Below are positions 6,361-37,002 of a DNA stretch of 39,159 nt, one piece after another. Under the pieces are notes generated by a model that had not been told where the DNA came from, searched no databases, and saw only the letters and a program-made list of their open reading frames with translations. The stretch comes from Candidatus Magasanikiibacteriota bacterium (GTDB lineage: Bacteria > Patescibacteriota > Patescibacteriia > Magasanikbacterales > GWA2-37-8), in the NCBI GenBank assembly GCA_016234265.1, contig JACRFW010000021.1:1-39159 (forward strand), read 5' to 3'. How positions within the stretch are numbered: the stretch's first letter is position 1; each line of letters starts with the position of its first letter. The position numbers were made by a program, and so were the translations under genes.

Positions 6361-9300
6361 GTGAGTAAAGCCGCCCGTAATTTGAAAACAATCATTCTGG
6401 TCGCCCTTTTGGTAATCGGGGCGGGGTTTTTTGTCGCCCAGGGGGCGCGGGCTCAAACGATAAGTTCCAATGATTTAGGAATCAGTTACGGCGCCGCCAC
6501 CGGGCTCGGAGCTACCGACATACGTTTAACGATCGCGAGAATTATTCGGGCGGCTCTGGGATTTCTCGGGGTAATAGCGGTGATGGTAATTTTGTATGGT
6601 GGTTTTCTCTACATGACGGCTGGGGGGAACGAAGAGAAGGTATCCGAAGCGAAAAAGATTTTAATTAACGGAGCGATCGGTCTCGTTATTATTTTATCGG
6701 CCTTTTCCATCGCGAGTTTTGTCGTGAGTAAATTGACGGGCGCGACCACCGGAGCAGAGCCGGGAACAGGCGGGGGCGGCGGAGGCGGCAGCGGTGGTGG
6801 TTTTCTTTCCAATGTTTTTTACGTGAGCAGTCTGCCGCAAGCCGGGGCGGTATGTCTTCGTAATATTAGTCTGCTGGTTGTTTTTAGTAAGGAGGTTGAT
6901 GTCACCACGCTCGGAGGAAACATCGTCGTGACGGATCAAAGCGCGAATAACGTGGAGGTAGCCGGAGGCTGGAAGTACGGCCAGACAAAAAACATGGCCA
7001 TATTCGCTCCCAATGGGCCGTGCGCGCCGAGCGCCGGGAATGATTGCTATAAGCCGGAGACAGCCTATAATTTGGTATTCAAAAATGCCGCCGGCGTAAA
7101 GACGCTTGATAAAAATCCTGAGTTAACCCTTAATTGCCGGTACAAAGCCGGCTGTGGGCCGGTGCCTTTCAAGAGCGGCCTCGGGGTGGACCGTTTGCCG
7201 CCTACGGTGACCATAACATACCCGGTGTCCGATACTATTTTAGAGCCCGGGACAACGGTGCCGGTGAAGTTGCATTACTCTGATGATAATGGCGTACAGA
7301 ATTTGTCGTTGTCATACGCCAAGGGGACGAGCGCTGCCACCTTTGTCGGTAGCGCATCCTTTAGCGGTTGTAAGCAGAGTGCGGACGTAACCATCCCGTG
7401 GCCGACCGGCGGTGTTGCCCCCGGCACCTATACGCTGTCGGCAATTGCGACTGATTGGGCCGGCCTTAATGGCACTGATACGCAAGATGCCACCCTTCGT
7501 CCGAACCAGTGCTTTAATGGGGTACAGGATACGAACGAAGCCGCGATTGATTGCGGCGGGACGAGCGGCTGCGGTCTCTGCCAGGGCGGTTCCTGTACCG
7601 CCAACAGTCAGTGCGCGAGCGGGTCCTGTGTGAATGGGATATGCCGCGATGTTATGCGGATTGATAGTTTTTCTCCGGCTTCCGGCGCTCCCGGCACCTT
7701 TGTGACGATTTCCGGCCGATGGTTTGGGGAGACCCCGGGTAAAGTATATTTTGCCACGACCAACCATCCGGCGGCCGGTAATCTGAGCGACTGGAAAGAA
7801 GCGAAAGTAGTAAATTGTGGGAATGTTATTGATAATTGGAGCGAGCGGCAGATTTTAGTTGAGGTGCCGGCCGCGACGGCGGCATCAAGCCCGATCAAGG
7901 TGGAGGCGGCGCCGGTGATGCGGGACGGCCTTACCACCACCCCGGTTGATATAACAAGCAATCATAATTTACCTAATTTTGACGTGACCACGCTCGTTCG
8001 GCCGGGTATTTGTGTTCTTGACCCGAATCATGGCCAGGCGGGTGACCTGGTGGCTATTAGCGGAAAAAATTTTGGCACTCTGAAGAGCGCGAGCGACAAT
8101 ATCACATTTGGAGATATGAAAGCGGCGGTGGCCCAGAATCAAAATGGAACGCCGGCTTGGGCCGCGGAGCGTATCGCTGTCGCCGCGCCAGCCATCGCTT
8201 CCGGGAGTGTCGGGGTGACGGTCACTAAAGACGGCGTGCCGAGCAATAGCGTCCGTTTTTTAGTTGCCGGCGGGGCCGTAGCCACCGAGCCTTTCATCTC
8301 CGGTATTACTCCGGCGCGGGGGGCGGCTGGTGACTATATCACCATCACTGGCGGTAATTTTGGCGACACCATCGGTTCGGTATGGTTTAAAGCCACGCCA
8401 ACCAGTCCGGCAATTATTGGCAGCTTTAACTTCCCTAAAGCCTGCCAGAATAATTTATGGAGCGATAAAAAAATTATCATGAAGTTCCCCGTGAGCAGCG
8501 GGTCGGCCAACACCAATTATTTAGTGCAAATCAATACCGGCAACAACCGGGTCAGCGCCATTGACAGCAATCAAACTTTTACTTTGGAAACTGGCGAGCC
8601 ATCGCCCGGTATTTGTTCTATTACTCCGGTTTCCGGGCCGATACCGTTCCCGGCCGGTCAGACGCTTCGTCTATCGGGCGAATATTTTTTGATCCCCCCG
8701 CCGGGCGGCACCACCGGGGCGCTACCGACCGATGTCTATTTCTGGTCTGGTAGCGGTAACCCCGCCGCCATTGTCGGGCGACCGGTGGCCGATCGTTCCA
8801 GTTCATTTTCAATTACCGCCACCGCTATCACTGTCCGGCCGCCAGATAAGACCATTACCGGCCCGGTATCGGTATATCGCGGGGCAGATCAAAAGATCAG
8901 CAACCCGGTTAACTTCAGCGCCAGCGATTGTCGTGTCAGTACCAACCAGTGTATTGCCGGCAGCCGTTGTTGTTTTTCTGGCGATCAAGCGGGCTTTTGC
9001 AAACCGAACGCCGAACTTTGTGTTGGAGAGACGCGCTCCAGTGGTTATATCTGGCGTTTTTCCACCAAAGACCTGCCGCCGGTACCGCACGTGGTGGAGC
9101 GCTGTGACGCGATCACCGAGAGCGGGGGCGCTCTGCCCACGCCGACGCCCAGCGTTCAGTGGGACGCCAACAACCAAGGCGATCATCACGCCGTGTGTTC
9201 CAGCGCTCTCGCGGTCGTGGAGTTTTCTACCGCTATTGATCAGGCGACGGTCAATGCCCAAAACGTGGCGGTGAATCGCTGTACCAGTGTTGACAGCAAA

Positions 9301-12300
9301 AACAATTGTGTTAACCCGGCGCCCCAGACACTGGCCGGAGAAAGTTATCGGCTGGAAACCGCCCTAAGCACCCGGCAGGGGAGCCACAGCTATCTTGAAC
9401 TTCAAAATACGAAGCCGTGGGATAAAGGTATCTGGTATCAGGTGGTATTGAGCAATAAAATCAAATCTTCCGCCGGGGCGGGCGGTATGGCTATAGCCTT
9501 GTCGGCTGATAAACCCTGCGGCGGCGACTCGGCTTATTGCTTTGTGTTCCAAGGGGGCGGGCAAGCCTGTGTGTTGAATAAGGTAGTGGTTACCCCGTAT
9601 AGCTACCTGACTGAATTTTTGGAGGAACCGGTGAGAAAGCACACGGCGCAAGGAGTAGGCGCGCCGGTTGATTACGTCGGCAACGGCCTCAGTAGCCAGC
9701 GCTGTATTATGATGGACGTGAGCGGGTACGCTTGGCAATGGGCGACGGGCAATGCCGTGTATGCGGGTATTTATAACATTAATACCGGCAGGAGGGTAAA
9801 TGTATCGGCCAAGGCCAATACGGTGGGAATAGGGCTCGCCAATGATTCCGTGCCGATTCAGGCGACCGCGAAAACCAACACGCCGGACGGGCCGATCGAG
9901 AAGCAGGGTCAAAGCCCGCTTACTATTGATTTAACTAATCCGGCCGTTGTGGATTACTGGCCGAAATGCTTAGAGGCCTGCACCGATGCCGATGTGGCAG
10001 TGCAGTTTAATGTCAGCCTTTCAACCAGAAATATTGATCGTGATGCCATAGAGCGAGGAGCAGTGAAGCTTAATAAGTGTAATGATGAGAACTGTTTAAG
10101 TGTTACCCAGGTGGGCGTATCTTCCGACGTGATTCTTGATCCGCAATCTCCCTTTACTGTTTTACATATTGCGAATAGCACCAATGGTTCGCTTGAGCTT
10201 GAACCAAATCAGGTGTATCAGGTGGTAATTTCTGCGGCGAGTTCAGACCCGGCTGCTACCAATCAGATATGGTCGCGGGCGCGGTCGGCCGTGCCGGCCT
10301 CTTTCAGTAAACCATATAATCAAGAGTTTACTTGGCGTTTCCGGACAAAGAAAGACAGATGCGTGGCGAGCCGGGTAAATGTTACCCCGCCTGAATTTAT
10401 TGCCCAGTTTATTTCCGATCGGCAGGTGTATACCGCTCAGCCATTTTCTTCTCCGGATAAGTGTTCCGCCTCTGGACAAAAATTAAATCCTTGGAAAGTA
10501 GATTGGACCTGGAATTCCAGCGCTCCGGCAGTGGCCACTATAGCGACCTTTAAAACCAAGGGGCGCAATAGTTTTTGCTCGTCGGCTTGTGTTAAGAGAG
10601 GCAGCGTCATACCTTCAACCATTGGCAACATTGTCTTGCCAGTTTGTGGCAATGGCAAGGTAGAGGCGGGGGAGGATTGTGATCCGCCGGGAAAGGCTAT
10701 CGGCTGCGGTCTTGATTGTCGCTGGCTGGGAAAATCGGCTGCTTCGGTGTGTGGCAATGGCAAGGTAGAAGCGGGCGAAGCCTGCGACCCGGCTGACCCT
10801 TTAACCAAAATTGGTTGTGGTAAAGATTGTTTGCGTCTGGGTTCTCTGCCGGCGGGGGCGGCGGGGAACGCGACCTCTACCTCTATTTGTGGCAATGGCA
10901 CTGTTGGCAGCGGTGAGGATTGTGATATTGGCGCGGTAGCGGACGTCTCCTCTCCGGCTTCGGCTCTTGGCTGTTCCGCGAAGTGTCTGCATCTGGGGAC
11001 ACATTTGACCAGCGATTGGTGCGCGAAAAACTTGACTGGTCAAGGTGGTTTCACGCCAACTGAATATACGGCATCCTGCGCTCAAGCCTATAGCCAGTGC
11101 GGTGATGGCGTGCCGGAGCCGGAGGAAGATATTGGCTGTGATTTGGGTGGCGGCAAACATGCGGACTGGTGCAATGATTATTGTCTCGTGAACAATAAAA
11201 ATCACCCGCTATCAGTCGGTTGCACTTCGGATACGGAGGGCTGTGATGTCAACGGTCAATATCTTGGCTCCGCGCTCACCTATAGCGCCCCCTCAGTCTG
11301 CGGCGATGGACGCGCCGGTATTGGCGAAGACCCGGTGTGTGAAACTAATTTGACGGTTTCGCATGACGGGCTCACTGACCCGTGGACACTGGCAATCGGA
11401 GTAGGGAAAGGGGTTGCCAACGGCACCCCGCCGGCTCAGCGCACGGTAATAACAGCCGCGACCACACCAGCGGCCGGTAAAACGGTTAGCGGGGCAGGCA
11501 AATTTATCATTGCCTGTGGCTATAAGACCGACGCCGATTGTGTAGCGGCGCTGGGGGACAGTTATGGCGTGGCCTCTGATTCCTGTTGTTATGCCCGCCC
11601 GCGTCTCATTAAACCGACAGTGCCGGTTGATAAGGTGTCTGACCCGATGAATGGGGCGGCGGTATGTATCAATACAGCCATTCAAGCGAAGTTTGACCAG
11701 TCAATTGATCCGGCTACTGTTGCGGGCAACTTCCTCATTGCCCGGGGTATCGGCGCGAGCGATTCCTGCGTCAACTCTTCTGACGATGTAACGGCGTTGC
11801 TCGCTTCGGTGCAGACGAGCGATCGTCATTCGTGGCTCCGCAACGTATTTAATTGGGCGCTCGCGGTGGCGCGCGACCTTTTGGGCGAGCGAGTGTCCGC
11901 GAAGATATTCAGTCCGCCGGCTAAATGGTGTGTCGGTGATGATTTGGGGACCGCGTCAGTAAGCGCGGGGCCAAATAATACTTCTTATGTGAATGTTGCT
12001 TTGGTGAAACCATTGGCTCCGGAAACAAACTATGCCATTATTTTGAAACCAGGCATTAAAAATATGAGTGGGGTGAGTATTGGAAAAGACGCCGGCGGAA
12101 AGAATATTTCCTGGAAGTTTGATACTCGCAACGGGCCGCCCTGCCTGGTTGATGCGGTGACCATTGATCCGCCGCAATGGTATTTCTCCCAATCCAACGC
12201 TACCGCCACGCTCACCGCGCGGGCTCGCTCCGGTGTAGGCAACGGAGTCACCATCCAATCTCTCCCCGGCTTCTATTCGTGGGATTATATTTGGTCGCCG

Positions 12301-15300
12301 ACAAATAATGATTCGGTGAGTGTGCCGGTCAGTCGGGCAGAGCGCGTGATTATCAGTTCCAAGAATACCAACGGCGAGGCCACGGTGCGCGCGTCCGCTA
12401 ATATCATTGATAACGTCTTCACGAACGCCACGGGCATTGTCGGGAGCGGCACGGCGCAGGTGGTGGTATTCCTCTGCGAAAATCCGTGGCCACCGAAAGA
12501 TATTTTTTCCGAGACGACCATCGCGGCCGGATCAAATACGGTGGGTACCTATACCCCAACCGGATATGTCCAGGATATCGCTTTTGCCGGTAAATATGCT
12601 TTTGTCGCCCACAACAACTATAGCGCGAGCGTTAACCCCGGGACTTTTGAAATTGTTAATTTCACCGACCCCACTCATCCGGCCTCAGTAGCCACGGTTC
12701 CCGTCGTCGGTTCGGTGCAGGGCGTCGCCGTTAGTGGTGATTATGCGTACGTTTCGTATTACGATCCGACCGGCACTGTGCCGGGGAGCATTCTTAAAAT
12801 TATAAATATTCGTGATCCTCTGCATCCGGTTGAAGTCGGCATTTTTCCTCTCGCCGGTTGGATGATCTGGCCAGGAGGAATATCGGTGATGGGTGATTAT
12901 GCCTACGCGCTCGTTAATCAGTGGAGTGTTAATTCTCAAGGAAGCATTCTCCAAGTAATCAATATCCGCGACCCTGCTCAACCGGCCAATGTGGTTTTAT
13001 ATCCTTTGTCAGTGTGGGCGAATACCTCGGCTGTGGCGAGTGGCGGCTATGTTTACTTCGTATCCAATAATTGGAACGGGACACCGGCCGGCACACTGAC
13101 AGTAGTTGATGCGCGCGATCCGGCTTACCCAACCGTGGCCACATCATATCAATTAGCAAACCCAGTGCAATCGGCTCCGATTATCGCCGGCAGCTATATT
13201 TATATTGGTGACTACTCTCTGGACTCAACGAAGTTTAATGTTGAAATCATCAATATCAGCAATCCACTTCAGCCGATTCTTATTGGTTCTGCGCCAATCA
13301 ACGGGTGGCTTCAAGGCGTTTCTGTTTCTGGGAACACGCTCTACGTGGTTGATTACAATTCTCTCGTGGCTGCCCAGAGCATCTTTCATATTTTTGACAT
13401 TCGCGATCCGGCTCACCCGACGGCAGCGAGTGCAAAGACACTAACCAGCTGGCCGAGCGGGCGCGGAGTGTATGTGTCTGGTGATTATGCTTTTCTGACA
13501 GCTACCAACGCAGCCTCTACCGGCAGCAGCTTGGAGATTGTTACTCAGCAAGCCGGTGGCACAGTCCGGACCGGGCCATTCACTATTTTCCCGTATGAAG
13601 ATGCCTCCGGCAATAACGATGCCTTTGATTTCAGCAAGGACGTTTTCTCTAACGCCGCGATCCCGCGGAGCACTGTGAACGCGCCCGGAGTCGGTGATGG
13701 CTATTTCAATTTTAGCACCTACTACTGCGCCGATGGCGGTAGCGCGGGTACGTTTGACGATTTGCCCTATTTACGTCCGGCGGCGCAAACGACGGCGGCC
13801 GATTTACAGGGTCAACCGGGCGTCTGCGAGATCACCGGAACGAGCTGTCAGACGGACGGTCAATGTGAGAATTATTATCAGTCGGCGATTTCGTTTGCCG
13901 CGCCGAAATCAGCGGCGAGCATTTGTGGCGGGACGACATCAACGGCAGCGGTCGCGAGATACTTCTTGGACGGGAAAGGGGCGCCGCTCGCGTGCGGTTC
14001 TGACACCGACTGTGCCGGCAGTCAGGATTTCACCAGCTGGAAAAAGAAAGCCGGCATCACCACGGGGAGCACTTGTCTGGCGCTCTCCGCCCTGCCGAAA
14101 CGCGCTCTCGCCTGTTATCTCTATCCTCCTTTGAAGCGATTTATTTTTACCAACAATAGAAATAGCGATGCGGTCGGTATTCAGGTGTTTAGCAATCCTC
14201 GTCATCTAACGCCGGCCGAATGGTATCGGCAGGATAAACGGGGGGGCGGACAGGGGTTCCTGGGCGCGGTGCAGACCACCAAGATTGCCGGGTACAATGC
14301 CGTCAGCGATGGTGACAATGTGTATATAGGCGCTTTGAATTATTCCACTTCCACCAACAGCCTGTATGATTTGGTTTATCTACTGAGCGTGAACAGCGGG
14401 GCCAAACCGGAAACACGCCGGGTATTTGACGCTTTTGTCAATAATTTTCGTCTGACCACTAATCTGACCGGGAATGACGGGTATTGCGGGGCGAAGATTG
14501 ATACCCCTGACTACCAGGTGAAATGCGTTTCTGATTTGGATTGTCCGGGGGGCCAGGTATGCGCGGCGCAGGTGGAAAAATTGCGCCGCGACTATCAGCG
14601 GATACGCGATTTGCGGACGATGGAAACCGGTCTGGAAACGTACGCCGCCACTCAAGTTGATACGGCGGCCAACATCAAAAAATACCCCGATTTGAAAGAG
14701 GGGACTTATCTCAGCGGGCAGACATTGAGCGTTTGGTCATCTTGGTCTGTTTTGGGGAACGCGCTCGGGCAGACATTGCCGCTGGATCCGGTTAATCAGC
14801 TGGGCCGGGCGGGGACATGCACGCCCATAACGACGCCGCCGGATACAGCGGATATCCATTGCGCGCGCGGCGAATGTAAACAATTTTGTACGACGGATGC
14901 GCAGTGCGGGGCGGGAAAGACCTGTACGCTGCATGATGCCACGACCGGCTGGAGCACAGCGGATCGGCGGTTCAGCTTTGCCTGTCCAAAATCTTCATAC
15001 GCCTATCGGTATATTTATTCTCCAGCCGGCGGGTATTCTCTGCGTTCCAATATTGAAGATATTGGCGTGCCGGTTGATAATTTGAGCGGCTTTCTAAGCG
15101 GTTTTGGTTTTTCTGACGCGAGCCGTTATAATGGACTGGGTTTTAACAGCGGCGGGCCGGGCATCTGTAACAACGACCAGGAAGTTTTGACCATCAGCAA
15201 AGGCTCGTGCGGTGACGGGCAGGTTAATATCGCTAATGGCGAGCAGTGCGATCCGCCGGGAAGCCAACGTTTCGGCTCCTGTGTCAGTGGCGCCGTGGCG

Positions 15301-17994
15301 GTTGATGTCTGTAATCCCGGTTGCCAGTGGGTCGCCTCTACCACTCCGTCGGTATCATGTTCTTATCTTAGCAAATGTGGCAATGGGCGGGTGGAGCGCG
15401 GCGAAGCCTGTGATGATGGCGCTTTGAACGGGAAATATAATCATTGCAATGTGACGTGCCGAGGCAAAGTAGCGGCCTATGATCCGGCGAATCCGAATGT
15501 TTCGCCGGGTTTTTGCGGCGATGGCAAGGTGAACCCAGCGTATGAGCTGTGTGACAACACTACCGGTCAGCCCATCTACGCTACCAACAGCACGGACAGG
15601 AATACGTCCTGCGGCGCCGATTGCCAGTCATATGGTCCGTATTGCGGCGACGGCATTATTCAAAGCCCGCGCGAAGAATGTGAGGGCAACCAGACCTGTA
15701 CCACTCCCGGCGGCCAAAACGGGACAAGATACTGCGCCAAAGATTGTACCCGGCAACCGTTGGCCGCCGCCGATGCCTGGCAACAACTCCTGGCCAACAA
15801 GGATGCCTGGGATAAGCTGGTCGAGGGCAGCGCTCCCGTAGGTTGGTGGCGGCTGGACAACAGCCCAATAAATATCAATGATGACGAGCTAGAAGCCAAA
15901 AAAGCTAAAGATTATTCCGGCAACAATTACGATGGCGCCATTTCCGGTGCGCCCAGATCAATAAGGGGCAAATTCGGTGATGGCATAAGCTTCAATGGCA
16001 TAGGCTTCGGCGGCCAGGGTGACGCGGTCACTATCGGTCAGTCGCCCAAGCTGGAGGATTTGCCGGAGATGTCGGTGGAGCTGTGGTACAAACCGGATGT
16101 CACCAATCGCGGTGAAGTGCTCGTTTCCAAATATGCAGCCGTTCCCGCGGAGTTTGAACTAGGCACCGGCAGTTGCGCCAACGGGTCAAGTCTTTGTCCG
16201 CTCTTCCGGCGCGATACCGTAAGCGGCCAATCCGGTTACGCTCTGACCAATGTCCATTTGCAGGCCGGGACATGGTATCATCTCGTCGGTTTGGATACTG
16301 GCGGCCAGTTGAAATTGTATATCAATGGCAAGAAAGAGGGAGAATCGGCGGCCGGACTCGCGTTTTCCACCGCGCGTTCGGACGCGGTTACTATTGGCAA
16401 GAGAGCCTACGCGGGCGCGGAATCCTACGCCAGCGGCATCATCAGCGAAGTGGCCATTTATAACCGAGTCTTGAGCGAGTCTGAAATTGTCAGCCACTAT
16501 CAAGCCGGCAATGTCTGGGTTTGTCAGGCCGATACGGGAGCGGCGGCCGTCAACACCGGCGGCGCCGCGGCTGGTCCGGCCTGCGGCAACGGCGTGGTGG
16601 AAATAAATGAAGCCTGTGACAATGGCTCCAAGAACGGTGTGGTTTGTACGCCAGGATACGGAAAGGCCTGTTCTTATTGTTCCGGCGACTGCAAAAATCG
16701 GATTGATGTCCAGCCGACCGAATATTGCGGCGATGGCGTCGTTCAAGCCGCGGAGGTATGTGACACCGCCGCCGACGGTACGGTATATGCCAAGTCCACA
16801 ACCGACCCTGCCACCACCGAAACCGCCAAGTCAACCGAGCATAACGGTTATGCGGCGTTGGCTTGCGCGAGTGAACCATTGGTAGCCAATATATTTAAGA
16901 AAGGCACGAAGATTTGCGCGAATAACTGTGCCGCTATTTTAGTAAAAGAGACCGGACAATCAAGTTGTGTTGCCTGCGGTATTGATGAGAATCGTGGTGT
17001 AGTGGTCAAGGGGGCGATATTAAATGTGCTGGAAGCTGCCAAGCCAACTACTTCACAGAATCCTCTTTATGCCTCGGTCAGCCATCTGGGCAAGATTGTT
17101 TTGTCCGGCCTGCCAGAACCCGGCGCGGTTAATGCTACTGAGCCCGGTATTGCGCGTGTTCTTCAGAATACCTCCTTTTCAGCATATGCCCTGCAATTCA
17201 AAAATAGTGGTGGTCAGTACATTGACGCGCCGCTCTCTACGGCCGGCCTTTGTTCCGCCGGGGATAGCGGCCGGAATTACAAGTTAACGGTGAATGACAG
17301 CGCCGATCCGTTTCTGTTTCCGATCAAGGTGGCGCCGGCGGCCTGGCAATATGATTTAATTCTGTCCCCGGTTATCAGCGCGGTGGGGTTGAAAGATCAG
17401 GACACCCGGAGCCGCCGGCCGGACGATATTAGGTTGGTGGTGAGCTGGGTAGGGGATGCTACTTTTAATAGCGGTTTTGTAAAACCCGTTTCCGGCAGTC
17501 CGACGATTGAATCGTTGGGCTTCGTACGCCCCATTACTACCGGTTTTGATTATTACACTAAGTCGTACAACGACCCCGCTGCCAGTGTTTGGGGTATATG
17601 GTATCATGGTCGCGGGCAGACGCCGGGCCTTCTCTCGGAGGAATCCTTCACCATCAATACTGGTGCCATGCAGACAGCAACGACCGGTGACACATACGTA
17701 TTTTATGTCCGCACGGAAGACGGCAGCGCTATTAAAAATATCGGGCGCGGTGCTAAATTGCGCGTTGATGTGTATCTGCCCGTCAGCCCGACGGCAGCGC
17801 CGGACTATACCACCTTCTCTCAGCCGGCGAGGAGTTTCCAGTTTGTGCTCTCTGACCCGTCCGACAACCCGGGCGCGTCGTATTGGGAAGTCCTGAAGAT
17901 ACAGAGGGCGCCTGGCCAAGTTACCAATCGCATTGAGGACGTGACGGCTAACCTTGATAATGGTAGAATAGTAACAGGAGCGGCACAATTCTAA
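6361..17994 (+). CDS. Giant (3877 aa) multidomain surface protein: pilin-like N-terminus, IPT/TIG, Big_5-like, Cys-rich DUF4215-like, LVIVD propeller and LamG-like domains
   Basis: GTG start. N-terminal ATDIRLTIARIIRAALGFLGVIAVMVILYGGFLYMTAGGNEEKVSEAKKILINGAIGLVIILSAFSIASFVV. About four IPT/TIG units (7650-8880), repeated CGNGxVExGExCD modules, LVIVD-like repeats (12.55-13.55 kb), LamG-like region (15.84-16.5 kb). Confidence 0.9.
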   Translation: MSKAARNLKTIILVALLVIGAGFFVAQGARAQTISSNDLGISYGAATGLGATDIRLTIARIIRAALGFLGVIAVMVILYGGFLYMTAGGNEEKVSEAKKILINGAIGLVIILSAFSIASFVVSKLTGATTGAEPGTGGGGGGGSGGGFLSNVFYVSSLPQAGAVCLRNISLLVVFSKEVDVTTLGGNIVVTDQSANNVEVAGGWKYGQTKNMAIFAPNGPCAPSAGNDCYKPETAYNLVFKNAAGVKTLDKNPELTLNCRYKAGCGPVPFKSGLGVDRLPPTVTITYPVSDTILEPGTTVPVKLHYSDDNGVQNLSLSYAKGTSAATFVGSASFSGCKQSADVTIPWPTGGVAPGTYTLSAIATDWAGLNGTDTQDATLRPNQCFNGVQDTNEAAIDCGGTSGCGLCQGGSCTANSQCASGSCVNGICRDVMRIDSFSPASGAPGTFVTISGRWFGETPGKVYFATTNHPAAGNLSDWKEAKVVNCGNVIDNWSERQILVEVPAATAASSPIKVEAAPVMRDGLTTTPVDITSNHNLPNFDVTTLVRPGICVLDPNHGQAGDLVAISGKNFGTLKSASDNITFGDMKAAVAQNQNGTPAWAAERIAVAAPAIASGSVGVTVTKDGVPSNSVRFLVAGGAVATEPFISGITPARGAAGDYITITGGNFGDTIGSVWFKATPTSPAIIGSFNFPKACQNNLWSDKKIIMKFPVSSGSANTNYLVQINTGNNRVSAIDSNQTFTLETGEPSPGICSITPVSGPIPFPAGQTLRLSGEYFLIPPPGGTTGALPTDVYFWSGSGNPAAIVGRPVADRSSSFSITATAITVRPPDKTITGPVSVYRGADQKISNPVNFSASDCRVSTNQCIAGSRCCFSGDQAGFCKPNAELCVGETRSSGYIWRFSTKDLPPVPHVVERCDAITESGGALPTPTPSVQWDANNQGDHHAVCSSALAVVEFSTAIDQATVNAQNVAVNRCTSVDSKNNCVNPAPQTLAGESYRLETALSTRQGSHSYLELQNTKPWDKGIWYQVVLSNKIKSSAGAGGMAIALSADKPCGGDSAYCFVFQGGGQACVLNKVVVTPYSYLTEFLEEPVRKHTAQGVGAPVDYVGNGLSSQRCIMMDVSGYAWQWATGNAVYAGIYNINTGRRVNVSAKANTVGIGLANDSVPIQATAKTNTPDGPIEKQGQSPLTIDLTNPAVVDYWPKCLEACTDADVAVQFNVSLSTRNIDRDAIERGAVKLNKCNDENCLSVTQVGVSSDVILDPQSPFTVLHIANSTNGSLELEPNQVYQVVISAASSDPAATNQIWSRARSAVPASFSKPYNQEFTWRFRTKKDRCVASRVNVTPPEFIAQFISDRQVYTAQPFSSPDKCSASGQKLNPWKVDWTWNSSAPAVATIATFKTKGRNSFCSSACVKRGSVIPSTIGNIVLPVCGNGKVEAGEDCDPPGKAIGCGLDCRWLGKSAASVCGNGKVEAGEACDPADPLTKIGCGKDCLRLGSLPAGAAGNATSTSICGNGTVGSGEDCDIGAVADVSSPASALGCSAKCLHLGTHLTSDWCAKNLTGQGGFTPTEYTASCAQAYSQCGDGVPEPEEDIGCDLGGGKHADWCNDYCLVNNKNHPLSVGCTSDTEGCDVNGQYLGSALTYSAPSVCGDGRAGIGEDPVCETNLTVSHDGLTDPWTLAIGVGKGVANGTPPAQRTVITAATTPAAGKTVSGAGKFIIACGYKTDADCVAALGDSYGVASDSCCYARPRLIKPTVPVDKVSDPMNGAAVCINTAIQAKFDQSIDPATVAGNFLIARGIGASDSCVNSSDDVTALLASVQTSDRHSWLRNVFNWALAVARDLLGERVSAKIFSPPAKWCVGDDLGTASVSAGPNNTSYVNVALVKPLAPETNYAIILKPGIKNMSGVSIGKDAGGKNISWKFDTRNGPPCLVDAVTIDPPQWYFSQSNATATLTARARSGVGNGVTIQSLPGFYSWDYIWSPTNNDSVSVPVSRAERVIISSKNTNGEATVRASANIIDNVFTNATGIVGSGTAQVVVFLCENPWPPKDIFSETTIAAGSNTVGTYTPTGYVQDIAFAGKYAFVAHNNYSASVNPGTFEIVNFTDPTHPASVATVPVVGSVQGVAVSGDYAYVSYYDPTGTVPGSILKIINIRDPLHPVEVGIFPLAGWMIWPGGISVMGDYAYALVNQWSVNSQGSILQVINIRDPAQPANVVLYPLSVWANTSAVASGGYVYFVSNNWNGTPAGTLTVVDARDPAYPTVATSYQLANPVQSAPIIAGSYIYIGDYSLDSTKFNVEIINISNPLQPILIGSAPINGWLQGVSVSGNTLYVVDYNSLVAAQSIFHIFDIRDPAHPTAASAKTLTSWPSGRGVYVSGDYAFLTATNAASTGSSLEIVTQQAGGTVRTGPFTIFPYEDASGNNDAFDFSKDVFSNAAIPRSTVNAPGVGDGYFNFSTYYCADGGSAGTFDDLPYLRPAAQTTAADLQGQPGVCEITGTSCQTDGQCENYYQSAISFAAPKSAASICGGTTSTAAVARYFLDGKGAPLACGSDTDCAGSQDFTSWKKKAGITTGSTCLALSALPKRALACYLYPPLKRFIFTNNRNSDAVGIQVFSNPRHLTPAEWYRQDKRGGGQGFLGAVQTTKIAGYNAVSDGDNVYIGALNYSTSTNSLYDLVYLLSVNSGAKPETRRVFDAFVNNFRLTTNLTGNDGYCGAKIDTPDYQVKCVSDLDCPGGQVCAAQVEKLRRDYQRIRDLRTMETGLETYAATQVDTAANIKKYPDLKEGTYLSGQTLSVWSSWSVLGNALGQTLPLDPVNQLGRAGTCTPITTPPDTADIHCARGECKQFCTTDAQCGAGKTCTLHDATTGWSTADRRFSFACPKSSYAYRYIYSPAGGYSLRSNIEDIGVPVDNLSGFLSGFGFSDASRYNGLGFNSGGPGICNNDQEVLTISKGSCGDGQVNIANGEQCDPPGSQRFGSCVSGAVAVDVCNPGCQWVASTTPSVSCSYLSKCGNGRVERGEACDDGALNGKYNHCNVTCRGKVAAYDPANPNVSPGFCGDGKVNPAYELCDNTTGQPIYATNSTDRNTSCGADCQSYGPYCGDGIIQSPREECEGNQTCTTPGGQNGTRYCAKDCTRQPLAAADAWQQLLANKDAWDKLVEGSAPVGWWRLDNSPININDDELEAKKAKDYSGNNYDGAISGAPRSIRGKFGDGISFNGIGFGGQGDAVTIGQSPKLEDLPEMSVELWYKPDVTNRGEVLVSKYAAVPAEFELGTGSCANGSSLCPLFRRDTVSGQSGYALTNVHLQAGTWYHLVGLDTGGQLKLYINGKKEGESAAGLAFSTARSDAVTIGKRAYAGAESYASGIISEVAIYNRVLSESEIVSHYQAGNVWVCQADTGAAAVNTGGAAAGPACGNGVVEINEACDNGSKNGVVCTPGYGKACSYCSGDCKNRIDVQPTEYCGDGVVQAAEVCDTAADGTVYAKSTTDPATTETAKSTEHNGYAALACASEPLVANIFKKGTKICANNCAAILVKETGQSSCVACGIDENRGVVVKGAILNVLEAAKPTTSQNPLYASVSHLGKIVLSGLPEPGAVNATEPGIARVLQNTSFSAYALQFKNSGGQYIDAPLSTAGLCSAGDSGRNYKLTVNDSADPFLFPIKVAPAAWQYDLILSPVISAVGLKDQDTRSRRPDDIRLVVSWVGDATFNSGFVKPVSGSPTIESLGFVRPITTGFDYYTKSYNDPAASVWGIWYHGRGQTPGLLSEESFTINTGAMQTATTGDTYVFYVRTEDGSAIKNIGRGAKLRVDVYLPVSPTAAPDYTTFSQPARSFQFVLSDPSDNPGASYWEVLKIQRAPGQVTNRIEDVTANLDNGRIVTGAAQF
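12548..13550 (+). repeat. LVIVD-type beta-propeller repeats within the giant protein
   Basis: Recurring V.VSGDYAYVS...SILKIINIRDPLHPVEVG / LQVINIRDPAQPANV / LTVVDARDPAYPTV / VEIINISNPLQPILIG / FHIFDIRDPAHPTAA. Confidence 0.8.
15838..16510 (+). other. LamG / concanavalin-A-like domain within the giant protein
   Basis: VGWWRLDNS...DYSGNNYDGAISGAP...FNGIGFGG..DAVTIG...EMSVELWYKP...TWYHLVGLDTGGQLKLYINGKKEG...ISEVAIYNRVLSESEI. Confidence 0.85.
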
Positions 17995-36130: not shown

Positions 36131-36158
36131 CCTCGAGACCAAACTCTCGGGGTTTTTT
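36131..36158 (+). terminator. Rho-independent terminator
   Basis: cctcgaga-ccaaac-tctcgggg followed by tttttt. Confidence 0.8.
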
Positions 36159-36200
36159 AATGAGAAGTTGTTCTTTACAAATCAGGTCAGGTAGATAGGC

Positions 36201-36254
36201 TGGCGCTACGCCAGACAAGCAAGTTGCTTTGAAAAGGCGGTTTACTTGTCTGGC
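36201..36254. repeat. Inverted repeats with mutually exclusive pairings
   Basis: tggcg-cta-cgcca (36201-36213) overlaps gccagacaag (36210-36219) / cttgtctggc (36245-36254). Confidence 0.65.
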
Positions 36255-36278
36255 AGCAGCAGTGGCAGCGGAGCGGGG

Positions 36279-36304
36279 CCTTCTGCTCTATAGTGAGCAG
36301 AAGG
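36279..36304 (+). promoter_or_regulatory. Perfect 10-bp hairpin upstream of the GC-rich ORF
   Basis: ccttctgctc-tatagt-gagcagaagg. Confidence 0.7.
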
Positions 36305-36327
36305 AACAACCTGAGGAGAGCGCCGAA

Positions 36328-36744
36328 ATGATCACCGTTCGGATCAGCGGGATGGTTCAGCAGAGGAACCTCACGATGGAGGGCGACCCGGAGGCGACGC
36401 ACTTCGATGGCGACCTGGAGGGGTTGCGGGAGATCGTGCGGGGGCGGCTGGTCAACGGCCAGTACGGCCGCTCCCGGCGCAAGCCTGAGAACTACGCGAT
36501 GCACCTGGAGGGCGACGAGGCGGAACTGTTCCGCGCGCCTGGGCTCGGGGACATGAGCGGCAAGCCCGTGGCGGCCTCGGTCATCGTGTTCCTGCGGCTG
36601 AGCGAGGAGTACGGCCACCCGGTCTTCACCGTGGTGAAGATGATGGCCGCGTCGGACGTGGGGGCCTTCGCGGGGTGTCTTCTCCCCATCCAGGAGGAAC
36701 AGCTCCCCGCCGCTCTCCCGAGCGCCCCCACCGCCACCACCTAG
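36328..36744 (+). CDS. Hypothetical protein, 138 aa, compositionally foreign
   Basis: SD ggag (36315-36318) 9 nt before ATG. Manual count: 128 of 138 sense codons end in G or C. No recognised family. The ORF track extends it to 36229. Confidence 0.65.
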   Translation: MITVRISGMVQQRNLTMEGDPEATHFDGDLEGLREIVRGRLVNGQYGRSRRKPENYAMHLEGDEAELFRAPGLGDMSGKPVAASVIVFLRLSEEYGHPVFTVVKMMAASDVGAFAGCLLPIQEEQLPAALPSAPTATT

Positions 36745-36767: not shown

Positions 36768-36829
36768 CCGGAGGCGGGCGAATGCACAGTCGGCTGTGAT
36801 GAACAGCTGACAATGCTCGCCCCCTCCGG
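36768..36829 (+). ncRNA. Long hairpin just upstream of the hammerhead motif
   Basis: ccggagg(c)gggcga (36768-36781) / tcgccccctccgg (36817-36829); inner gtcggctg (36789-36796) / cagctgac (36804-36811). Confidence 0.7.
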
Positions 36830-36835
36830 TAACCC

Positions 36836-36937
36836 AGTCTCTCCCGATTAAATCGGGGCTGATGAGTCCTAATAAAAACGAACTACGAAACGATACGAAA
36901 GTACGAAATGATTTGATGAGAGCAAGGACGAAAGACT
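36836..36937 (+). ncRNA. Candidate hammerhead ribozyme (stem III open)
   Basis: AGTCT (36836-36840) C17 (36841); stem I TCCCGAT/ATCGGGG; core CTGATGA (36859-36865); stem II GTCC (36866-36869)/GGAC (36926-36929); core GAAA (36930-36933); stem III GACT (36934-36937). Confidence 0.8.
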
Positions 36938-36944
36938 AATAAAT

Positions 36945-36977
36945 AAAAGACTCTCTCACATACGCGGGGGAGTCTTT
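36945..36977 (+). terminator. Rho-independent terminator immediately after the hammerhead motif
   Basis: aaaagactctc...gggagtcttttt. Confidence 0.75.
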
Positions 36978-37002
36978 TTGTGTTATACTATACCCAGATT
37001 AT

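Follow-up and report, generated by a model that had tools for sequence, protein, structure and literature searches.

A type III hammerhead ribozyme behind a GC-rich orphan gene in Patescibacteria and its probable role in mRNA 3'-end maturation

The 39,159-nt stretch of Candidatus Magasanikiibacteriota DNA analysed here (the window) very likely encodes a working type III hammerhead ribozyme, for which sequence predicts cleavage 3' of C36841. The hammerhead does not stand alone: in this ultra-small bacterium of the Patescibacteria (CPR), it closes a recurring one-gene unit on the 3' side. Related hammerheads occur in about one-eighth of the sampled genomes of the phylum, often behind GC-rich genes that differ between genomes, indicating that they probably form a system for trimming mRNA 3' ends. 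From these comparisons, we put the probability that the window hammerhead matures the 3' end of the mRNA from the ORF in front of it at roughly 70%. Such a system, if real, has so far gone unnoticed in Patescibacteria, and it would imply defined mRNA 3' ends, as well as short mRNAs capped by a hairpin, for a class of genes that can be recognised in a phylum with very small genomes. The features of the unit in the window are as follows.

36131-36158, + strand: terminator-like leader hairpin with a U-tract, CCTCGAGA/TCTCGGGG followed by TTTTTT (sequence)
36169-36182, + strand: boxA-like antitermination site TGTTCTTTACAAAT (motif enriched upstream of CPR hammerheads)
36211-36253, + strand: strong 5'UTR hairpin, CCAGACAAG...CTTGTCTGG (fold of the 80 nt that follow boxA, z -3.4)
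36313-36319, + strand: Shine-Dalgarno-like GAGGAGA (sequence)
36328-36744, + strand: orphan ORF of 138 aa in a stretch of 66% GC (no Pfam or PHROG match; GC3)
36768-36829, + strand: long GC-rich hairpin, separated from stem III on its 3' side by 6 nt (fold)
36836-36937, + strand: type III hammerhead ribozyme (R2 model match, covariation in 90 relatives)
36836-36840 with 36933-36937, + strand: stem III, AGTCT with AGACT (sequence)
36841, + strand: C17; cleavage predicted 3' of C36841 (sequence)
36842-36848/36852-36858, + strand: stem I, TCCCGAT/ATCGGGG, loop TAA (sequence)
36859-36865, + strand: core CTGATGA (sequence)
36866-36870/36925-36929, + strand: stem II, GTCC(T)/(A)GGAC, 4 bp, or 5 bp with the U-A pair
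36871-36924, + strand: stem II insert with a copy of the dispersed ACGAA/TACGAAA repeat (about 36872-36908)
36930-36932, + strand: core GAA (sequence)
36945-36985, + strand: intrinsic terminator directly 3' of the hammerhead (terminator scan)

Helices I, II and III of the hammerhead comprise 7, 4 to 5 and 5 bp, with standard or G-U pairs throughout. Helices I and II are closed and helix III is open, which is the type III topology. The NUH triplet is CUC, ending at C36841, and A15.1 (A36933) pairs with T36840 (U16.1) at the base of stem III. An earlier, sequence-only reading had listed every core block of the motif, and all of them were present at 36836 to 36937. Its 4-bp stem II was right, becoming 5 bp when the U-A pair is counted, and the insert with ACGAA units and a TAC-GAAA-GTA hairpin, given there as about 56 nt, measures 54 to 56 nt. 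Its type III topology, CPR origin and predicted cut after C36841 also hold. Its statement that type III is rarer than types I and II in bacteria is unsupported: according to Perreault et al. (2011, PMC3088659), type II equals types I and III in frequency in bacteria, and at least 92 full type III hammerheads were found in viral contigs.

The motif is almost certainly a genuine hammerhead. When 690 million strand-bases with the dinucleotide composition of the window were simulated, long loops allowed, comparably good motifs had an expectation of about 1e-4 per window. Searches with Rfam at gathering and relaxed thresholds returned chance matches alone for the window locus, and RF00008 was absent at its own position. 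The hammerhead lies below the RF00008 gathering cut-off, which is a database threshold and not a biochemical property; this failure is attributed to the 54- to 56-nt stem II insert and the narrow type III model. Two relatives, L060 (53.4 bits) and L146 (48.8 bits), pass the cut-off of 48.5 bits. A covariance model (R2) trained on 73 hammerheads of other Patescibacteria families, with the window's family left out, scored the window hammerhead at 55.1 bits (E 4.9e-13). The sequence-only reading had named the lack of a covariance-model hit as a sign against the motif; Rfam indeed gave no hit, but the independent model detected the window copy. The assignment to type III is based on the relatives and their covariation, described below, together with the R2 match and the two members above the Rfam cut-off.

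Among 90 aligned members, 95.1% of pair cells were standard pairs, and 16 of 17 pairs, in all helices, showed changes on both sides. The covariation score was 0.831; shuffling gave 0.191, and sliding the partners gave no more than 0.14. Since the alignment was made to fit the structure, these values are somewhat inflated, but most changes are true pair swaps. The sequence-only reading had named a lack of covariation in homologs as a sign against the motif and had proposed a search for copies in related CPR genomes; both lines supported the hammerhead identity, with covarying relatives across Patescibacteria. Judged by folding energy, a competing structure comes out ahead (free MFE of -21.6 kcal/mol, compared with -18.3 kcal/mol when the hammerhead stems are imposed), so that the case for the hammerhead rests on conservation.

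The relatives were collected in several ways. Whole-query DNA similarity within the family recovered mainly the ACGAA repeat and terminator-like palindromes, along with the first true relatives, and a rule-based scanner added further hammerheads, tandem copies among them. A pattern scan for the core with a long insert gave complete hammerheads in CPR contigs only (Magasanikbacteria, Adlerbacteria and Taylorbacteria); its 36 loci were mostly coding-sequence coincidences lacking stems I and III, and the CPR ones alone survived. A covariance model (R1) was built from eight CPR hammerheads, with inserts trimmed for the seed. R1 matched 11 of 27 genomes of the window's family (E ≤ 0.1, a few weak matches included), 29 of 88 genomes at order level (E ≤ 0.01) and 46 of 389 genomes, or about 12%, in the class sample and again in the phylum sample (E ≤ 1e-4). 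The 19 genomes from other phyla yielded no convincing hammerhead, the best match scoring 22 bits, whereas the sampled CPR matches exceeded 26 bits. The whole 913-kb assembly of the window contained one hammerhead at the model threshold.

The surroundings of the window hammerhead, namely the boxA leader, the GC-rich ORF, the 3' hairpin and the terminator, are its more informative part. Across the CPR loci, the order of the unit is (leader hairpin), boxA-like site, long 5'UTR hairpin, GC3-rich ORF, strong hairpin, hammerhead and then a terminator or the next unit, and the ORF is usually an orphan. The boxA-like motif occurred upstream of CPR hammerheads 21 times in sense and 2 times in antisense orientation in 84.5 kb, and the 80 nt after it folded with a mean z of -3.58 over 20 sites, compared with -1.33 in controls. 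The GC3 of the upstream ORFs exceeded that of their neighbours in 41 of 47 loci (median +0.26, p=3e-7), with the largest contrast being 0.96 versus 0.42. Most of these ORFs had no Pfam or PHROG relatives and, one pair excepted, they were unrelated to each other. Folding of the 48 nt that immediately precede stem III gave a mean z of -2.98 in 79 CPR members versus -0.62 in control windows, and terminator-like sites were located within 100 nt downstream of 33 of 80 CPR hammerheads versus 10 of 80 control stretches. The hammerhead set offers a conserved, testable anatomy of stop codon, hairpin, cleavage site and terminator.

In the window, GC3 was 0.85 for a 171-aa reading of the ORF (36229 to 36744), and neighbouring ORFs average 0.57. 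The ORF had no Pfam or PHROG match, and no relative was found in 26 other genomes of the family or in phage records. The leader hairpin at 36131 to 36158 is positioned like the hairpin that precedes the boxA-like site in G016 (L061). The nearest annotated genes, from the subset of ORFs that was annotated, encode a glycosyltransferase, a methyltransferase, an EamA transporter and a glycosidase. Elsewhere in the window, the 3' part of a 16S rRNA gene (1 to 1216) is interrupted by an insert, the match resuming near 1019; the insert carries a LAGLIDADG ORF at 446 to 1051, and a weak group-II D1-D4 match lies at 416 to 529. A 3877-aa ORF at 6361 to 17994, with T4SS_pilin, Big, TIG, Laminin_G_3 and LVIVD matches, represents a giant surface protein.

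The anatomy suggests the following course of events. The transcript would begin with the boxA leader and the long hairpin, continue through the GC-rich ORF, the strong hairpin and the ribozyme, and stop at the intrinsic terminator behind it. Self-cleavage after C36841 would release the ribozyme-terminator tail with a 5'-OH and leave an mRNA that ends a few nucleotides past the stable hairpin with a 2',3'-cyclic phosphate. This hairpin-capped 3' end would probably protect the mRNA from 3' exonucleases. Where relatives carry tandem arrays, such a cut would divide a polycistronic RNA into mRNAs of one gene each. In the G006 array, the last of three hammerheads alone has a terminator, and a boxA-like site lies 8 to 9 nt after each of the first two, which fits a separation of cistrons. 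We infer that the ribozyme cleaves in vivo, that the mRNA is stabilized and that the boxA is functional; the gain from processing could be stability, uniform ends or separate regulation. The units of G006 (L018 1283-1470, 2190-2380 and 2880-3000) and those of G005 and G007 also contain a structured RNA of about 150 to 200 nt between the ORF and the hammerhead hairpin. It is 70 to 85% conserved between units with unrelated ORFs and had no Rfam match in L018.

Several observations count against 3'-end maturation. The boxA was present at only 20 of 56 loci, part of the upstream ORFs are not GC3-rich and the terminator is absent at some loci. Across the hammerhead set, the triplet was CUC in 14 and GUC in 24 cases. 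Folding energy slightly favours the competing structure, and the long insert could also impair the loop-loop contacts of the window ribozyme.

Loop II in the hammerhead set ranges from 3 to 4 nt up to 56 nt, the window copy being the longest. The A-rich portion of the window insert is the TACGAAA/ACGAA repeat, which is dispersed in the window genome and in several relatives, and the GAGCA beside stem II resembles residues of relatives with 18- to 19-nt loops. Loop II has likely grown, or taken up an insertion, at its tip. Pairing of the insert with the cleavage-site strand is also feasible and may have a regulatory or inhibitory effect. Loop I of the window copy, GATTAAATC, is identical in L061 and L086. 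The insert of L061 was also considered as a dispersed repeat and rejected, the sole copy in G016 being its own. In two genomes, TACGAAA repeats lie beside a small gene (L008 1-600 and L004 1350-1750), and in L008 they are inverted on the two sides of an ORF at 176 to 568 (130 aa), whose product is presumably a GxxExxY-family protein. These repeats and the small gene possibly constitute a mobile unit.

The unit is retained at a syntenic site in three genera, represented by G000 (the window), G009 and G016, with a hammerhead in the interval of each. Upstream gene products at this site are 45 to 78% identical, the downstream EamA and glycosidase genes are common to all three, and the interval varies in length and content. 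G016 has an additional gene between the hammerhead and EamA, and no glycosyltransferase match was found in its stretch. No homologue of the window ORF was detectable at the syntenic sites in G009 and G016. Sequence comparison establishes the motif, its covariation, the gene anatomy and a conserved site with a different ORF. The hammerhead-linked ORF at the syntenic site in G009 (L191 8297-8905) appears frameshifted, through either assembly error or decay.

A similar exchange was observed in five loci (L126-L130) from different genomes of four families. Their 5' and 3' blocks are 75 to 88% identical, and the ORFs between them, of 113 to 420 codons, are unrelated. Since the identity of the shell rules out divergence of the ORF by point mutation alone, ORF replacement is the better reading for this group. 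The end of the 3' block recurs inverted at the start of the 5' block in L127 and, by eye, in others of the group, which suggests inverted terminal repeats. The units end in inverted repeats of about 70 nt (TTCAAAAAATATTTTT...), and long palindromes beside them resemble, by eye, integron attC sites. We tentatively suggest, with the odds somewhat against it, that Patescibacteria have exchangeable one-gene cassettes in which a conserved RNA shell (boxA leader, 5' and 3' hairpins, type III hammerhead and terminator) carries changing GC3-rich orphan cargo. The hammerhead-made ends would give unusually stable or discrete mRNAs, and in one group the shell would be bounded by inverted repeats and move between families. 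If true, this would be a new way for Patescibacteria genomes to swap genes with their expression signals retained.

Alternatively, the hammerhead and orphan gene may be remnants of a late operon of a phage, where hammerheads cleave long transcripts; they would then be domesticated or decaying and have no present role in the host. In viral contigs, full type III hammerheads with the layout of stop codon, hairpin and hammerhead are common, at least 92 of them in at least 67 loci, and a phage association of hammerheads is noted in a review (PMC6155905). Among the matches listed, about 37 nt separate the stop codon from the phage hammerhead, and a hairpin immediately precedes the ribozyme (mean z -3.05). 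These listed phage copies had no sense boxA and a GC3 difference of merely +0.04, whereas the CPR units have a boxA, a 5' hairpin and a strong GC3 bias. This indicates that the stop-hairpin-hammerhead order is common to phage and CPR, and that the CPR set is distinguished by its boxA leader and its GC-rich exchanged cargo. Given also that three genera retain the unit at a syntenic site in the chromosome and that there was no phage gene among the neighbouring genes examined, a phage leftover is unlikely. One 93-kb viral contig contains five hammerheads of type I reading (L305 1892, 2389, 2867, 4170 and 6151), each shortly 5' of a start codon.

It is less likely still that pairs of hammerheads excise and ligate an ORF-carrying RNA circle, as a circular-RNA or retrozyme-like element would. 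Tandem hammerheads on the same strand, 0.5 to 1 kb apart, do occur in several genomes, and in other organisms retrozyme and viroid-like circles are bounded by type III hammerheads. However, just one hammerhead is present in the window and at most loci, the ORFs enclosed by tandem copies are unrelated, and each copy in the closely inspected arrays has its own boxA-like site and hairpins. Neither a reverse transcriptase nor repeat-bounded copies were seen at the window, and Perreault et al. (PMC3088659) sought circles with bacterial tandem hammerheads and found none.

A regulated ribozyme is about as improbable as the circle, or slightly more so. The 54-nt insert would act as a switch, with GATTTGAT-GAGAG pairing to ATTAAATC and CTCTC around the cleavage site and blocking cleavage unless displaced. 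This alternative pairing is the free-energy minimum, and the window insert is the longest of the set and contains the dispersed repeat. The overall fold was, however, no more stable than shuffled sequence (z -0.74), the other long inserts (L029, L044 and L061) are unrelated to that of the window, and GAGCA, part of the complement, also occurs beside stem II in short-loop relatives. Finally, a chance or inactive look-alike, with which the missing Rfam match would agree, is very improbable in view of the simulation, the independent model, covariation, synteny and the conserved surroundings.

Maturation of the mRNA 3' end remains the preferred reading, and the unit can be compared with known systems. 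The window copy shares the core, three helices, NUH triplet and open stem III with RF00008 type III hammerheads; it differs in its 54- to 56-nt stem II insert and CUC, is undetected by RF00008 and lies at a chromosomal gene end, whereas the classic setting is satellite or viroid RNA. The boxA-like TGTTCTTTNAAA followed by a long hairpin resembles an rRNA-operon leader (boxA and Nus antitermination), but the putative boxA here precedes an mRNA and not rRNA. With retrozymes, the unit shares type III hammerheads adjoining repeated units; it lacks a bounding hammerhead pair, LTR or reverse-transcription features, and its cargo is protein-coding. No paper joining hammerhead ribozymes with Patescibacteria or CPR was found in the open-access subset searched. 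The review describes small non-conserved ORFs between bacterial hammerheads and calls their role open (PMC6155905). Perreault et al. (2011, PMC3088659) showed that tandem hammerheads from bacteria self-cleave in vitro as well as in E. coli, with cleavage of three arrays reported, and proposed that those of prophages divide long transcripts into mRNAs of gene length. The anatomy of stop codon, hairpin, cleavage site and terminator is not described in the available parts of these two sources. The hammerheads of PMC3088659 likewise flank single small non-conserved genes, and some were shown to be active; those are largely prophage-linked, whereas the CPR set is chromosomal, with a boxA leader, 5' and 3' hairpins, an exchanged GC3-rich ORF and a terminator right behind the ribozyme.
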